NCBI GenBank assembly: GCA_014894455.1
Contig: JADBLN010000029.1
Span: 1-36,921, forward strand
DNA: 36,921 nt
Direction of reading: 5' to 3'
Origin: Acidobacteriota bacterium
GTDB lineage: Bacteria > Acidobacteriota > Aminicenantia > Aminicenantales > Saccharicenantaceae
Position 1 is the first letter of the stretch; each line of letters opens with the position of its first letter. The notes under the pieces were generated by a model. That model searched no databases and was not told where the DNA came from. It saw only the letters and a program-made list of their open reading frames with translations. A program made the translations under genes and the position numbers. This document shows, piece by piece, positions 20,726-27,326 of this stretch.

Positions 20726-22207
20726 ATGCTGACGGTCATGGACGAAACGAAAAGCTCGGTTTACGACGTCGCCGTCATCGGCGGCGGGGCCGTCGGCTGC
20801 GCCGTCCTCCGGGAGCTCTCGCGCTACGACCTGAAGCTCCTCCTCCTCGAGAGGGAAGCGGACCTGGCCGAGGGCATCAGCAAGGGCAACAGCGGTGTCA
20901 TCCACGCCGGGTTCAACGTCTCGGCCGGGTCGCTCAAGGCTAAAACCAACGCCGCCGGCTTGGGGATGATCTACGGCCTGGCCGCGGAACTCGGCGTCCC
21001 CCACCGCAAGACCGGAAAGCTCGTCGTGGCCCTGGCCAATGCGGACAGGAGCCGCCTCGAGGAGCTCAAGGCCGATGGCGACAAGAACGGCGTCCAGGAC
21101 CTCGAGATCGTTGACGAGGCCGCCATCCGGCGCCTCGAGCCCCTGGCGCGCGGCCACTGGGCGCTCTATTCGCCGCACACGGGCATCATCTCCCCCTACG
21201 AATTCACCATCGCGCTGGCCGAGTGCGCCGGACAGAACGGCGCCCGGGTCTTGCTCGAGGCGCCCGTCGAGGCCGTTGACTTCCGCGGCGGCCTCTTCCA
21301 CCTGTCGACGCCGAAAGGGACGTTCGCGGCCCGCCGGGTCGTCAACAGCGCCGGCCTTTTTTCCGACGAAGTCGCCCGCTTGGCTGGGATCGACGAATAC
21401 CGGGTCTTCCCATATCGGGGCGAGTATCTCATCACGGACAAGGATTGCGGGCTCCGGCTCGGCCTTCCCGTTTATCCCGTGCCGCCACGCGACGACCCCG
21501 GCCTCGGCATCCATATCACGCCGACTCTGGAGGGGAACATCATCCTCGGCCCGAGCGCGGAGCCGGTCGACGACAAGCGCGACGTCTCCTCGACCCGGAA
21601 AGCCATGGCCCGGCTCAAGGCCGAGGCCGCCCGGCTCATGCCGGAGCTTTCCCGCGTCTCCTTCATCCGCAGCTACGCGGGGATACGCCCCAAGCTTGTC
21701 GACGCGAGCGACAAGGACAGGTTCGGCGATTTCATCGTCGAGGAGAGCGCCCTCCGTCCGGGCTGGATAAACCTCGTCGGGATCGAGTCGCCCGGTCTGA
21801 CCGCGGCGCCGGCCATCGCCGTAATGGTAGCCGGGATGATCGGCGCGAAAACGGATCTCCGGCCGAAGCCGGAGTTCAAACCGGAGCGGCTTCGCAGGAC
21901 CCGCTTCGCCGCCCTGGGCGACGGCGAGCGGGTGGGGCTGGTCGCCCGGGACGCCGACTGGGGCGAGATGGTCTGCCGCTGCGAGCACGTCGCCCGGGCC
22001 GAGGTCGTCGCCGCCCTGCGGAACCCGTTCGGGGCAAAGACGATGGACGCCGTCAAGCGTCGGACCCGGTGTGGCATGGGCCGCTGCCAGGGCGGTTTCT
22101 GCACGCCGCGCATCGTCGAGATCCTCCAGGACGAAGGGATGCCTGTCGACAGGATCACCAAACGGGGCGGCGGCTCCCGCCTCTTCTATGGGTGGCTCAA
22201 GGGCTGA
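20726..22207 (+). CDS. GlpA-like FAD-dependent oxidoreductase with C-terminal BFD-type [2Fe-2S] domain
   Basis: 493 residues. Seen: Rossmann FAD motif VIGGGAVGCAVLRELSRY (about 17-34), the DAO-family 'GNSGVIHAGF', 'VNSAGLFSDEVARLAG' and 'LVGIESPGLTAAPAIA', then a C-terminal Cys-rich domain (about 420-475: CRCEH...RCGMGRCQGGFC) of the bacterioferritin-associated-ferredoxin type that binds a [2Fe-2S] cluster. Family members include anaerobic glycerol-3-phosphate dehydrogenase GlpA and L-2-hydroxyglutarate oxidases. GlpB and GlpC are absent; instead the next two genes form the GlpA/FAD-reductase/DUF1667 triad known from Thermotoga and Clostridia. ATG 20726 or ATG 20738 could be the start. Confidence 0.87.
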   Translation: MLTVMDETKSSVYDVAVIGGGAVGCAVLRELSRYDLKLLLLEREADLAEGISKGNSGVIHAGFNVSAGSLKAKTNAAGLGMIYGLAAELGVPHRKTGKLVVALANADRSRLEELKADGDKNGVQDLEIVDEAAIRRLEPLARGHWALYSPHTGIISPYEFTIALAECAGQNGARVLLEAPVEAVDFRGGLFHLSTPKGTFAARRVVNSAGLFSDEVARLAGIDEYRVFPYRGEYLITDKDCGLRLGLPVYPVPPRDDPGLGIHITPTLEGNIILGPSAEPVDDKRDVSSTRKAMARLKAEAARLMPELSRVSFIRSYAGIRPKLVDASDKDRFGDFIVEESALRPGWINLVGIESPGLTAAPAIAVMVAGMIGAKTDLRPKPEFKPERLRRTRFAALGDGERVGLVARDADWGEMVCRCEHVARAEVVAALRNPFGAKTMDAVKRRTRCGMGRCQGGFCTPRIVEILQDEGMPVDRITKRGGGSRLFYGWLKG

Positions 22208-22213
22208 ACGAAG

Positions 22214-23458
22214 ATGGAAGCGAACGAGACCCATGACGTCGTCGTTATCGGCGGAGGTCCGGCCGGATTGGCCGCGGCCCTGGGCGCCCGGCGGGCCGGG
22301 GCGGGGAAAGTCCTCCTCGTCGAGCGCGACCGGACCCTCGGCGGCATCCTTAACCAATGCGTCCACGACGGCTTCGGGCTTTTCCTCTACAACGAAACGA
22401 TCAGCGGCCCCGAATACGCCGAGCGGCTCATCGAAGACGTCGTCCGCGAACCGATCAAGGTCGAGACCGGGACCATGGTCCTCGACCTTGGGCCGGACCG
22501 TGTCCTTCGGATCAACTCCCGTGCCGGCTATAGACTCGTTCGGGCCGGAGCCGTCGTGCTGGCCATGGGCTGCCGGGAGCGGACGCGGGAGATGATCGAG
22601 ATCCCGGGAACGCGCCCGGCCGGTGTTTTTACGGCCGGGTCGGCCCAGAACCTGGTCAACCTCCAGAATCTCCGCATCGGCAACGCGGCCGTCGTCCTGG
22701 GCTCGGGCGATATCGGGCTGATCATGGCCCGCCGCCTGACCTTCGAGGGCGTCGCGGTAAAGGGCGTCTTCGAGATCATGCCCTGGGCGAGCGGCCTCGA
22801 ACGCAACGTCCGCCAATGCCTGCTCGATTTCGGCATCCCGCTCGAGCTACGGTCGACCGTCGTCGAGATCCGAGGCCGCGACCGGGTGGAGAGCGTCGTC
22901 GTGGCCAAGGTCGACGATGCGCTCGGGCCGGTCGCCGGGACCGAGAGCGTCATTCCCTGCGATACCCTGCTCCTCTCGGTGGGGCTCATTCCCGAGAACG
23001 AACTCTCGAAGCGGGCCGGCGTCGCGCTCTCGCCGTTCACCGGAGGCGCCGTCGTCGACCAGACGCTCATGACCTCGGTCCCCGGGATTTTCTCTTGCGG
23101 CAATGTCCTTCATATCCATGACGTGGCCGATTGGGCCTCATACGAAGGTTTCGCGGCCGGCGAATCCGCCGCCCGTTACGCGGCGGGGGAGAAGGCGGCC
23201 GGCGGGACGGTCCGTGTTTCCGCCGGGCCGAACGTCAAGTACGTCCTCCCCCAAGTCCTGACGGCCGGGTCCGCGGGCGTAGAATGGAGCTTCCGGACAA
23301 TGCGTCCCCTCAGGAACGTCCAGGTCGTCGTCAAGGGGAAAACGACGGGAAAGGTCTATGCCCGGAAGAAGTTCGGCCGCCTCCTGCCGTCGGAGCTCCA
23401 GAAGATCAAGGTGCGTCCGGCCGTCGAAGAGGACCTCGAGGTCAGCTGCCATGAATGA
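22214..23458 (+). CDS. FAD/NAD(P)-dependent oxidoreductase, triad second subunit
   Basis: 414 residues, pyridine-nucleotide-disulfide-type flavoprotein. Seen: FAD motif VVIGGGPAGLAAALGARRAG (about 10-29), 'LGGILNQCVHDGFGL' with a Cys near the flavin, second nucleotide motif VVLGSGDIGLIMARRL (about 157-172) for NAD(P)H, and 'GIFSCGNVLHIHDVADWASYEGFAAG' near the C-terminus (FAD-binding GNV). This likely relays electrons between NAD(P) and the GlpA-like subunit (inference). Starts 6 bp after the previous stop and overlaps the DUF1667 gene by 8 bp. Confidence 0.88.
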   Translation: MEANETHDVVVIGGGPAGLAAALGARRAGAGKVLLVERDRTLGGILNQCVHDGFGLFLYNETISGPEYAERLIEDVVREPIKVETGTMVLDLGPDRVLRINSRAGYRLVRAGAVVLAMGCRERTREMIEIPGTRPAGVFTAGSAQNLVNLQNLRIGNAAVVLGSGDIGLIMARRLTFEGVAVKGVFEIMPWASGLERNVRQCLLDFGIPLELRSTVVEIRGRDRVESVVVAKVDDALGPVAGTESVIPCDTLLLSVGLIPENELSKRAGVALSPFTGGAVVDQTLMTSVPGIFSCGNVLHIHDVADWASYEGFAAGESAARYAAGEKAAGGTVRVSAGPNVKYVLPQVLTAGSAGVEWSFRTMRPLRNVQVVVKGKTTGKVYARKKFGRLLPSELQKIKVRPAVEEDLEVSCHE

Positions 23459-23825
23459 CCGCCCCGCCCTCGACCGCCTGACCTGCGTCCTCTGCCCTGT
23501 CGGCTGCGAGCTCGAGATCCGCAAGGACGAGGCCGGGGAGCTCGACGTCCAAGGGAACCAGTGCGACAAGGGCGTACCCTTCGCCGTCGAAGAAATCCTC
23601 CATCCGAAGAGGAACCTGGCCACGTCGGTTCCGGTCCGGGGCACGGCGGCGACGATGGTCTCGGTCCGGCTGAGCGGCCCCGTGCCGAGAGAGATGATCT
23701 TCCCCATCCTCGCCGAGATCGCCCGACTCAGGCCGGAGTCCCCCGTCCGACGCGGCCAGGTCCTCATCGCCGACGTCCTTGGCACGGGCGTCGACGTCAT
23801 CGCCACCCGCACGGTTGAATCGTAA
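23451..23825 (+). CDS. DUF1667 protein, triad third subunit
   Basis: 124 residues. Seen: an N-terminal Cys cluster CVLCPVGCEL and a further Cys in 'VQGNQCDKG', the hallmark of DUF1667 (four Cys that probably bind an Fe-S cluster or metal), then 'PFAVEEILHPKRNLATSVPVRG' and a 'VSVRLSGPVPREMIFPILAEIARL' domain. The start ATG 23451 overlaps the end of the preceding gene (ATGAATGA). DUF1667 genes are known to follow this oxidoreductase pair; the protein is plausibly a small electron-transfer or assembly subunit (inference). Confidence 0.88.
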   Translation: MNDRPALDRLTCVLCPVGCELEIRKDEAGELDVQGNQCDKGVPFAVEEILHPKRNLATSVPVRGTAATMVSVRLSGPVPREMIFPILAEIARLRPESPVRRGQVLIADVLGTGVDVIATRTVES

Positions 23826-23887: not shown

Positions 23888-25822
23888 TTACTTCTCGAGG
23901 ACGGCCAGAACTTCCATGTGGGGCGTGTGGGGGAAGAGGTCGAAGGACGAGAGGGATTTGACCCTGTAGCCGGCGTCGAGAAAACCGCGGAGGTCCCGGG
24001 CGAGCGAAGCCGGGTTACAGGACACGTAGACGACCGCGGGGACGCCGAGGTCCAAGACCCGGCGGAGCGCCTTGCCCGTGAGCCCGACGCGCGGCGGGTC
24101 GACGACGACGACGTCGGCCGGCTCGCGGAGCGGTTCACTCAGCAGGGCTTCGACGGTCCCCGGCACGAACGCGGCGTTCTCGATGCGGTTGAGCATGGCG
24201 TTTTCCACGGCGGTGGCGATATTGGCGGGGGAGGAGTCGACGCCCGTCACTTTCCGGACCGCCCCGGCGAGCGAGAGCTCGATCGTCCCGCTGCCGCAAT
24301 AGAGCCCCAGGACGTGGCTCTCCGGAGATAGCGGAGCTTCGTCCCTGATCCTTCGGTAGAGCAGTTCGGCGCCGGCCGTGTTGGTCTGGAAGAACGTCTG
24401 GGGGTAGACCCGGAAGGTGAGGCCGGCCAGCGTTTCCTCGATGAACGGGGCCCCGGCGACGAGCTGGGTCTTCTCGTGCTCGACGAGGTCCGAGGGGCGG
24501 TTGTTCGTGACGTGGACGAAACTCTTGAGCTCCGGGACGGCGGCCATCAGGCGCTCGGCCAGGACGGCGATATCCGTGCCCGGAAGCTCGGCCGTCACGA
24601 GGATGACCATGAGCTCGCCGGTCCTCTTCCCCTGCCGGAGGACGAGGTGGCGGACGTGTCCGTGGCCCGACAGGATGTCGAAAACGGCCAGGCCTTTTTC
24701 GCCGACGAAATCGATCACGGCCGGAAAGACACGCTCGACGACAGGACTGAATATCGGGCACGCGTCGATGGACAAAGTGCGGCGGTGGGTCTGCCGGGTG
24801 GCCGTGACTCTCTCCCTGAGCCCGAGCACGAGCCGGCCCCAGTTCTCCCCGAAGCCGAACTCCATCTTGTTCCGGTAGGCGTAGAAGTCCGGCGAGGGCG
24901 TGATGGCCTTGACGGTCGCGGCCGCCTCGGCGATGCCGGCCTCCACGAGCGTCCGTTTGAGGTGCCGTTCTTTGAGCTCGAGCTGGGTCCCGTAATCGAT
25001 GTTCTGGAAGAGGCAGCCGCCGCACCGCCCGAAATGAGGACAGCGGGGCTCGGCGCGGCGGCTCGAAGGGAGCTCGACCCGGATGACCTCGGCGACACGG
25101 GCGGCGCCGCGCTCACCGACGACCTGGACCCGGACGGTTTCGCCGGTGACGCCGCCCGGGATAAGAAGCTTGCGGCCGTCGGCCACGGCTTTCCCGGAGC
25201 TCGCCGGGAAATCGATGTCCTCGACCTCGACCGTGAGCGGCGGGGCCTTGAACAGGGCCAGGAGCCGCCGGACCTTTTCCACGGGAAAGCCGACGACGTT
25301 GTCGTAATCCCCCTTGAGCTTGGCGACGAACGCGTCGCCGACCTCCTGGACGGCGTAGGCGCCGGCCTTGTCGAAGCAGCTTTCCTGGTCGAGGTAGCCT
25401 TCGATCATCTCCGCGGAGAGCTCGCGGAAGGTGACGTAGGTCAGGTCGTAGCCCGTGAGGAGGCGATCCTCGGTTTTGTTGTAAAAAGCCAACCCGGTCA
25501 TCACCCGGTGCCGCCGGCCCGAGAGCGCCCGGAGCATGGCCCGAGCGGCTTCCCGGTCGGACGGCTTACCGAGGACGCGCAGACCTAGGGCGACGACCGT
25601 GTCCGCCCCGATGACGATGGCTTCGGGGAAGGATTCGGCCGCCATTTTGGCCTTCAGCACGGCGGCGGCGATGGCGAACTCGAGCGGGTCTTTCTCCGGA
25701 ACCGAGGATTCGTCGACGTCGGTCGGGAAGACGCGGAACTCCGGCGCGACCCGGGCCATGAGCTCCCGGCGCCGGGGCGAAGCCGAGGCGAGGACGATTT
25801 CCGCCATCTGCGTTTTTTCCAT
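23888..25822 (-). CDS. Maf nucleotide pyrophosphatase fused to RlmD/TrmA-type RNA (uracil-5)-methyltransferase
   Basis: 644 residues, two enzymes in one chain. Residues 7-192: Maf domain with SASPRR (13-18), GADTVV (72-77), GKP (85-87) and DKAGAYAVQ (151-159), the dTTP/UTP-type house-cleaning pyrophosphatase pattern, ending in the usual GDYDNVVGFPV. After about 3 residues comes a TRAM-like domain (196-250), then the RumA/RlmD-type methyltransferase: [4Fe-4S] Cys 261, 267, 270 and 355, FFQTN 477-481, SAM loop LYCGSGTIEL 507-516, DPPRVG 575-580 and catalytic SCNP with Cys 602. No stop or plausible restart lies at the junction. The start is ATG 25822 or 25807. Each half is complete, so both should be active. 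I know no standard description of this fusion. Confidence 0.93.
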   Translation of the reverse strand: MEKTQMAEIVLASASPRRRELMARVAPEFRVFPTDVDESSVPEKDPLEFAIAAAVLKAKMAAESFPEAIVIGADTVVALGLRVLGKPSDREAARAMLRALSGRRHRVMTGLAFYNKTEDRLLTGYDLTYVTFRELSAEMIEGYLDQESCFDKAGAYAVQEVGDAFVAKLKGDYDNVVGFPVEKVRRLLALFKAPPLTVEVEDIDFPASSGKAVADGRKLLIPGGVTGETVRVQVVGERGAARVAEVIRVELPSSRRAEPRCPHFGRCGGCLFQNIDYGTQLELKERHLKRTLVEAGIAEAAATVKAITPSPDFYAYRNKMEFGFGENWGRLVLGLRERVTATRQTHRRTLSIDACPIFSPVVERVFPAVIDFVGEKGLAVFDILSGHGHVRHLVLRQGKRTGELMVILVTAELPGTDIAVLAERLMAAVPELKSFVHVTNNRPSDLVEHEKTQLVAGAPFIEETLAGLTFRVYPQTFFQTNTAGAELLYRRIRDEAPLSPESHVLGLYCGSGTIELSLAGAVRKVTGVDSSPANIATAVENAMLNRIENAAFVPGTVEALLSEPLREPADVVVVDPPRVGLTGKALRRVLDLGVPAVVYVSCNPASLARDLRGFLDAGYRVKSLSSFDLFPHTPHMEVLAVLEK

Positions 25823-25891: not shown

Positions 25892-27103
25892 CTAGGGGAA
25901 GAGCCGTGCCCCCCAGCCGGTCTCGACGGCGTAATTCATGCACCGGGCGAAAATAGCGTAATCGAATTCGGGGCAGACAAGGCCCCTTTTTTCGAGGGCC
26001 GGCGCGGCGTTCTTGATCTCGAACGTCCGCAGGTCCTGCATGTAAGGACGGTAGGCGTCGAGGTAAGCATCGTAGAGCGTCTCCAGAGCGTTCCTCGGCT
26101 GCGCCACAAAGGCCTCCAACCCGCAGGTCTCGACGCCGTCCAGGCGAAAAAGACGTTTGGCGTGATCGACGAGATCCTCGATCCTCGTCGGCCGGGAGTT
26201 GACGATGTGATAGACGCCGCCTTCGAGGCCGTCCTCCAGGATGGCCATGAAGACATCGACGCAGTGGTCGATCGGGACGAGGTTGATGCCGCCCTCGCGG
26301 CCGGCCTCGATACGGATGGGCATGAAAAGATACCCGTTCTCCTTCATCCGGATGCCCAGCTCCGAGGCTTTCCTCCCGTCCCGCTCGCGAATGTCGGCGA
26401 GGTAGATGTCGCGGAGAAAGACGGCCGCCTTGACCGGGAAGTAGAGGGCGTTGAAGCGCAGGGTTCGTCCCGTCCGGGAATCGCCGTAGACGATGGACGG
26501 CCGGTAGACGTTGAGCCGGATGCCCTCGCGCCGGCAGACGTCCCGGGCCAGGATCTCTCCGCCGGCCTTCGTCTCTTCGTAGACGTTGGTGAATTTGCCC
26601 GATTCGACCCATTCCTCCCGGCAGAGCCCGGTCCGCTTTCCGGCGACGAAAGCGGTGCTGACATGGTGGAAAAAGACGCACCCGCTCCGGGCGGCGAAAT
26701 CGAGGACGTTGCGGAGCCCGCCGATGTTGACCGCCTCGACCTCGGCCCGCTTCCGCTCGGCGAAGGCCGTGTTCGAGGCGCAGTGGACGATCTCGTCGAC
26801 CGGGCCCGGTCCCGCTGTCCCCTCGAGCGCCGCTTCGGCCCAGCCGGGGTCGAGGACATCGCCCTCGGCGACGTCGAGAGACCGGCGTACCCCCTCGTCG
26901 AGGCCGAACCAGTCGGCGAGACGGGCGACCCTGTCCTGGGCCGGGAGCTTTTTCGATGACCGGACCAAAACCGTTACCCGGTGGCCGGCCCTCAACAGGG
27001 CGACGGCGATGTGGCTGCCGAGGAACCCCGTCCCGCCCGTGACCAGGATGCGTTGACCTCGTGCTGCGCGCCTTTCGACGAGCGTCCCTGACCCGATTCT
27101 CAT
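25892..27103 (-). CDS. Extended SDR / thioester-reductase-like NAD(P)-dependent oxidoreductase
   Basis: 403 residues. Seen: NAD(P) motif VTGGTGFLGSHIAVALL (about 21-37), 'VLVRSSKK', 'EIVHCASNTAFAE', the catalytic pair in YEETKAGGE (YxxxK-type), and 'INLVPIDHCVDVFMAIL', typical of NAD_binding_4/male-sterility or thioester-reductase domains that reduce acyl thioesters to aldehydes or alcohols. It stands alone, without a carrier-protein or adenylation domain. The first codons overlap GGGAGGGG followed by TTG-ATG; ATG 27103 is taken as start. Substrate unknown; lipid or polyketide-like acyl groups are an inference from the family. Confidence 0.85.
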   Translation of the reverse strand: MRIGSGTLVERRAARGQRILVTGGTGFLGSHIAVALLRAGHRVTVLVRSSKKLPAQDRVARLADWFGLDEGVRRSLDVAEGDVLDPGWAEAALEGTAGPGPVDEIVHCASNTAFAERKRAEVEAVNIGGLRNVLDFAARSGCVFFHHVSTAFVAGKRTGLCREEWVESGKFTNVYEETKAGGEILARDVCRREGIRLNVYRPSIVYGDSRTGRTLRFNALYFPVKAAVFLRDIYLADIRERDGRKASELGIRMKENGYLFMPIRIEAGREGGINLVPIDHCVDVFMAILEDGLEGGVYHIVNSRPTRIEDLVDHAKRLFRLDGVETCGLEAFVAQPRNALETLYDAYLDAYRPYMQDLRTFEIKNAAPALEKRGLVCPEFDYAIFARCMNYAVETGWGARLFP

Positions 27104-27326
27104 CAAGCCCCTCCCGGCCCGAGGCCGAGCCGCTGGACCGTCGTTCGCTTCTAGAAAAAGCCGACCTTTTCTTCAGATATCCGCATTCTCGCGTCTTCCC
27201 CGACGGTGTCATTCACTTTATCAAATGGTACCGGAAATAAAAAGGGGGAGGATCGGTCTTGTCTGGGAATGGCGACATCTTGGAAAATATGCGCGGTTAC
27301 AATAAAATAGCGGCGGAGATCGTTGA

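Follow-up and report, generated by a model that had tools for sequence, protein, structure and literature searches.

Maf proteins are nucleotide pyrophosphatases whose cellular role is unsettled between division arrest and house cleaning (PMC3899018). The same study divides them by the residues R-T-Q or W-Q-E, and assayed members of the YhdE subfamily hydrolyse m5UTP, pseudo-UTP, m5CTP, dTTP, UTP and CTP (PMC3899018). Among these, m5UTP and pseudo-UTP are high-affinity substrates in vitro, and evidence for E. coli YhdE in vivo points to dTTP and UTP (PMC3899018). Linkage of Maf to methyltransferases has been described: human ASMTL and other eukaryotic fusions join an N-terminal YhdE-type Maf to a methyltransferase, and in some archaea maf is associated with a methyltransferase gene (PMC3899018). 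In ASMTL the partner is an N-acetylserotonin O-methyltransferase-like domain.

Here we describe a different combination, in the 96% complete draft genome of a Candidatus Aminicenantes bacterium (125 contigs). The window, meaning the whole stretch of 36,921 nucleotides that was analysed, contains a 644-codon open frame on the minus strand (23888-25822) without an internal stop. It encodes first a complete YhdE-type Maf pyrophosphatase and then a complete TRAM/Fe-S/Rossmann m5U methyltransferase of the RlmD type (TIGR00479), with the following features.

23888..25822, minus strand: maf-rlmD-type fused gene, 644 aa, start ATG at 25822, alternative ATG at 25807
25256..25801, minus strand: Maf domain (YhdE-type nucleotide pyrophosphatase), residues 8-189, from PF02545, motifs and Foldseek
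25238..25255, minus strand: short linker, residues ~190-195, without an internal start codon; helix 181-192 and strand 196-199 in the model
25070..25237, minus strand: TRAM domain, residues ~196-251, beta-rich in the model and aligned with the E. coli RlmD N-terminus
25013..25042, minus strand: cluster motif C261-x5-C267-x2-C270, aligned with E. coli RlmD C81/C87/C90
24758..24760, minus strand: fourth cluster cysteine C355, aligned with E. coli RlmD C162
23891..24400, minus strand: SAM-dependent methyltransferase core, residues ~475-644, from PF05958 (2.5e-19) and Foldseek
24017..24019, minus strand: catalytic nucleophile Cys602, aligned with E. coli RlmD C389
23912..23914, minus strand: Glu637, counterpart of E. 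coli RlmD E424

Because most homologues begin near M-[KDE]-[IV]-[VI]-L-A-S, Met6 (25807) may be the start. An earlier, sequence-only reading of this DNA had reported two complete enzymes in one frame, separated by three residues; the architecture holds, but the gap is ~6 residues, from the end of the Maf profile at 189 to the first TRAM strand at ~196. Residues 182-212 include no ATG, GTG or TTG codon. A methyltransferase carrying the complete TRAM domain therefore lacks an evident start codon and would not readily be made alone. A structure modelled with AlphaFold2 from 24 aligned sequences (mean pLDDT 89, pTM 0.85) contained both folds.

The Maf half matched Pfam PF02545 over residues 8-189 (1.3e-55; 188.5 bits against a cut-off of 27) and NCBIfam TIGR00172 (166.5 bits against a cut-off of 117.15). 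In Foldseek, B. subtilis Maf 4heb (TMt 0.92) and E. coli YhdE were matches of the N-terminal part, with TMt values of 0.92-0.93. Residues were aligned with E. coli YhdE, YceF, RlmD and RlmC as references. The six-residue catalytic signature S-R-E-K-D-K and the YhdE-subfamily residues R-T-Q (not W-Q-E) were present in all 39 aligned fused proteins, a set counted apart from the 39 genomes reported below (two sequences come from G042, none from G041 and a few other genomes), and also in the Dus-Maf protein described below. E. coli YhdE and B. subtilis Maf (BSU28050) share both motifs and the fold but are free-standing enzymes. Judged at the level of the family, the Maf half looks active and is a predicted pyrimidine NTP pyrophosphatase. 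Membership of the YhdE subfamily, with m5UTP among its assayed substrates (PMC3899018), also agrees with the earlier suggestion that such proteins act on m5UTP-type nucleotides. A non-catalytic or regulatory Maf half, for instance one that senses NTPs or serves as a platform on which the methyltransferase dimerises, would fit the observation that the C-terminal region through which known Maf proteins dimerise (PMC3899018) here leads into the TRAM domain; conservation of all six catalytic residues makes this very unlikely.

The second half matched NCBIfam TIGR00479 (rumA/RlmD) over residues 210-637 (1.4e-88; 297.6 bits, cut-off 183.55). It fell short of the narrower RlmD model NF009639 (227.1 against 458 bits) and was therefore classed as RlmD-type rather than RlmD proper. 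C261, C267, C270, C355, C602 and E637 align with C81, C87, C90, C162, C389 and E424 of E. coli RlmD, confirming that all cluster cysteines and the catalytic Cys602 are present, as first read; the four cluster cysteines, C602 and E637 were retained in 39 of 39 aligned fused proteins. E. coli RlmD (RumA) thus has the same TRAM domain, cluster cysteines and catalytic counterparts, but lacks Maf. In Foldseek the C-terminal part matched S. pneumoniae RlmCD 5xj1 (TMt 0.92) and E. coli RumA 1uwv (TMt 0.88). RlmCD is the closest solved structure to this half by both sequence and fold; it has no Fe-S cluster (PMC5614603), whereas all four cysteines are retained in the fused protein. From its family membership, which supports the original assignment, the second half looks like a SAM-dependent m5U methyltransferase of 23S rRNA. 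Its target may be U1939, U747, both or another site, because RlmCD, one enzyme of COG2265, serves both U747 and U1939 (PMC6235398, PMC7226160).

Contig 76 of the host genome carries a second RlmD-type paralogue, which is not fused (L002:1471-2760, minus strand); its motif C-G-H-F-L-A-C-S-P-Y is missing one of the three clustered cysteines.

The full-length fusion was found in 39 of 94 genomes of the order: 37 of the 60 searched as relatives, host included, and two more (G460, G461), distributed over families f1, f2, f3, f4 and f7. The junction is conserved, with 93% identity to G004 over residues 1-642, 71-74% to other close relatives, and 42-93% across dozens of other genomes. It is therefore not a sequencing artefact, and the fusion is more than a private accident: far from being absent in close relatives, as the sequence-only reading had allowed, it is shared among them. 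The probability of an assembly or sequencing artefact, for which nothing speaks beyond the draft state of the genome, is practically nil, since these relatives already refute it. In six pairwise comparisons dN/dS was 0.11-0.21 for the Maf half and 0.09-0.31 for the methyltransferase half; purifying selection acts on both halves.

Maf itself was present in 44 of the 94 genomes, as 39 full-length fusions, three genes cut by a contig end (G008, G010, G030) and two Dus-Maf fusions. All 44 thus carry a Maf that is fused or contig-cut, with one extra stand-alone, distant Maf in G040, and the fused gene is the sole Maf of the host. Where present, the Maf of this order is practically always fused. The 94-genome search detected no Maf in families f5 and f6 or in the f2 genomes G049, G054 and G058, so Maf is dispensable there. 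A split pair of maf and fused-type rlmD was seen in none of the 94 genomes.

Individual genomes showed some variation. G042 carries two diverged full-length fused copies on contigs C68 and C77 (L014, L067), reflecting duplication or a mixed assembly. The fused gene of G041 (L021 / L087), counted among the 37, has one in-frame TAG after ~581 residues with homology continuing beyond it, attributable to a sequencing error or recent decay. Long open frames (746-1013 aa) extend upstream of the fusion in G004, G009, G003 and G046; their additional residues resemble the chance coding expected of GC-rich DNA, and a further domain was rejected.

Outside the order, no full-length match was found in a phylum sample of 396 genomes, and the 43 Maf genes read elsewhere in the phylum were all separate, none joined to RlmD. 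Six long Maf frames from other families of the phylum (L150-L155) were rejected as candidates, having neither an RlmD nor a Dus domain. In other orders of the class (L156, L157, L160-L162), no maf-rlmD neighbours were found within ~2 kb of Maf. Full-length matches were likewise absent from samples of two other phyla (395 and 334 genomes, E <= 1e-80) and of a third (398 genomes, 1e-70, without a positive control), at strict cut-offs under which a fusion that had diverged or arisen independently might escape notice. No relative came from viral contigs.

The sequence-only reading had considered the pairing undescribed. ASMTL and the archaeal association (PMC3899018) qualify this for Maf-methyltransferase linkage in general. 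The fused protein is not of the ASMTL type: its C-terminal half is a TRAM/Fe-S RNA m5U methyltransferase of the RlmD type, not an O-methyltransferase of the ASMT kind. The RlmD-type partner, its broad establishment across a bacterial order and the switch to DusB described next did not appear in the open-access papers searched, a set that omits most subscription journals, and none of these papers named a Maf-RlmD or Maf-Dus fusion.

Both halves were placed in trees. All fused methyltransferases fell on one side of a branch (98/88), adjoining a Syntrophorhabdaceae protein, and all fused Maf domains, Dus-Maf included, formed one clade (99/98). On these trees the fusion arose once. In genus g11 (G040 and G458), Maf is instead found at the C-terminal end of a DusB-type tRNA-dihydrouridine synthase.

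L066:2911-4584 in G040, minus strand: DusB-Maf fusion, 557 aa, also found on L077 in G458

The two proteins are 76% identical over residues 6-550. The Dus half scores 1.3e-70 and 238 bits with TIGR00737, below the model cut-off of 293; E. coli DusB, comparable with the g11 variant only, is alike in this half (TIGR00737), and g11 adds the C-terminal Maf. In the tree the g11 Maf falls within the clade of RlmD-fused Maf domains (100/95 and 99/89 on the branches concerned), so that, most simply read, the domain parted from RlmD and was then attached to DusB. No fused-type RlmD was found in G040 or G458, and comparison of the DNA downstream of Dus-Maf in both genomes with RlmD gave chance alignments only. 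Because only two related genomes are involved, the switch counts as one event.

This change of partner is the most interesting new fact: it weakens the case for strict m5U specificity and points to a wider connection between Maf and the modification of uridines in RNA. DusB does not make m5U. The two halves of the RlmD-type fusion share no intermediate, because methylation to m5U takes place on polymeric RNA and RNA decay is the only source of free m5U nucleotides. The sequence-only reading had proposed that a single protein might both make m5U in RNA and clear free m5UTP/dTTP-like nucleotides; in a strictly m5U-specific version, the m5UTP removed would come from RNA decay. The R-T-Q motif in 39 of 39 proteins and the in vitro affinity of YhdE-type Maf for m5UTP and pseudo-UTP (PMC3899018) are consistent with such a pairing, but the attachment of the g11 Maf to DusB, the in vivo evidence for dTTP and UTP as substrates of E. 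coli YhdE (PMC3899018) and the unfused RlmD-type paralogue in the host genome all argue against it, and we regard it as unlikely. That the same Maf moved to DusB suggests that any coupling is not specific to m5U.

We consider it about an even call that the protein is a genuine two-headed enzyme in which cleaning of the nucleotide pool is tied to RNA uridine modification in general. The N-terminal half would cleave pyrimidine NTPs (UTP, dTTP, and modified forms such as m5UTP and pseudo-UTP) to the monophosphate and pyrophosphate, and the C-terminal half would use SAM to form m5U on 23S rRNA, at U1939, U747 or both. These reactions would be independent, with no intermediate passed between the halves, and the protein would therefore not be a channelling enzyme; the tie would instead be one of amount and place. 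Inheritance has fixed the fusion in some lineages of a single order of uncultured bacteria, the Aminicenantes.

Fusions, once made, can persist without functional coupling. Two housekeeping enzymes may thus have been joined once by chance, both remaining active, hard to re-separate and harmless when expressed jointly. A single origin, the lack of an intermediate shared by known chemistry, and the finding that no rlmD lies within ~2 kb of Maf at the loci read from other orders of this class all suit this neutral history; on the other hand, the same Maf was re-attached to a second RNA-uridine enzyme instead of going free, and no split pair occurs in the 94 genomes. We take a neutral history to be a real possibility, if not the one we would back. 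A functional tie in the two-headed enzyme is favoured by the re-fusion in g11, to judge from the nesting of its Maf. More tentatively, and with some doubt, Maf may be a portable module on RNA-uridine-modifying enzymes, first the RlmD-type methyltransferase and then DusB, which would bind pyrimidine nucleotide cleaning physically to the RNA-modification machinery; the tether itself would be functional, for example by clearing UTP-like or modified nucleotides locally, close to where RNA is processed or decays. Where the only Maf of a lineage is joined to an RNA-uridine methyltransferase, or in a single genus to a tRNA dihydrouridine synthase, the domain fusion is evidence of Maf acting together with RNA uridine modification, and the fused gene offers a single protein in which this link can be tested.

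Finally, the neighbourhood of the fused gene was inspected. A thioester-reductase-like NAD-binding protein is encoded ~70 bases upstream on the same strand (window 25892-27106, minus strand), such that co-transcription is possible. Convergent with the fused gene lies a three-gene set (window 20726-23825, plus strand) encoding an FAD oxidoreductase with a BFD-like [2Fe-2S] domain, a pyridine nucleotide-disulphide oxidoreductase and a DUF1667 protein.
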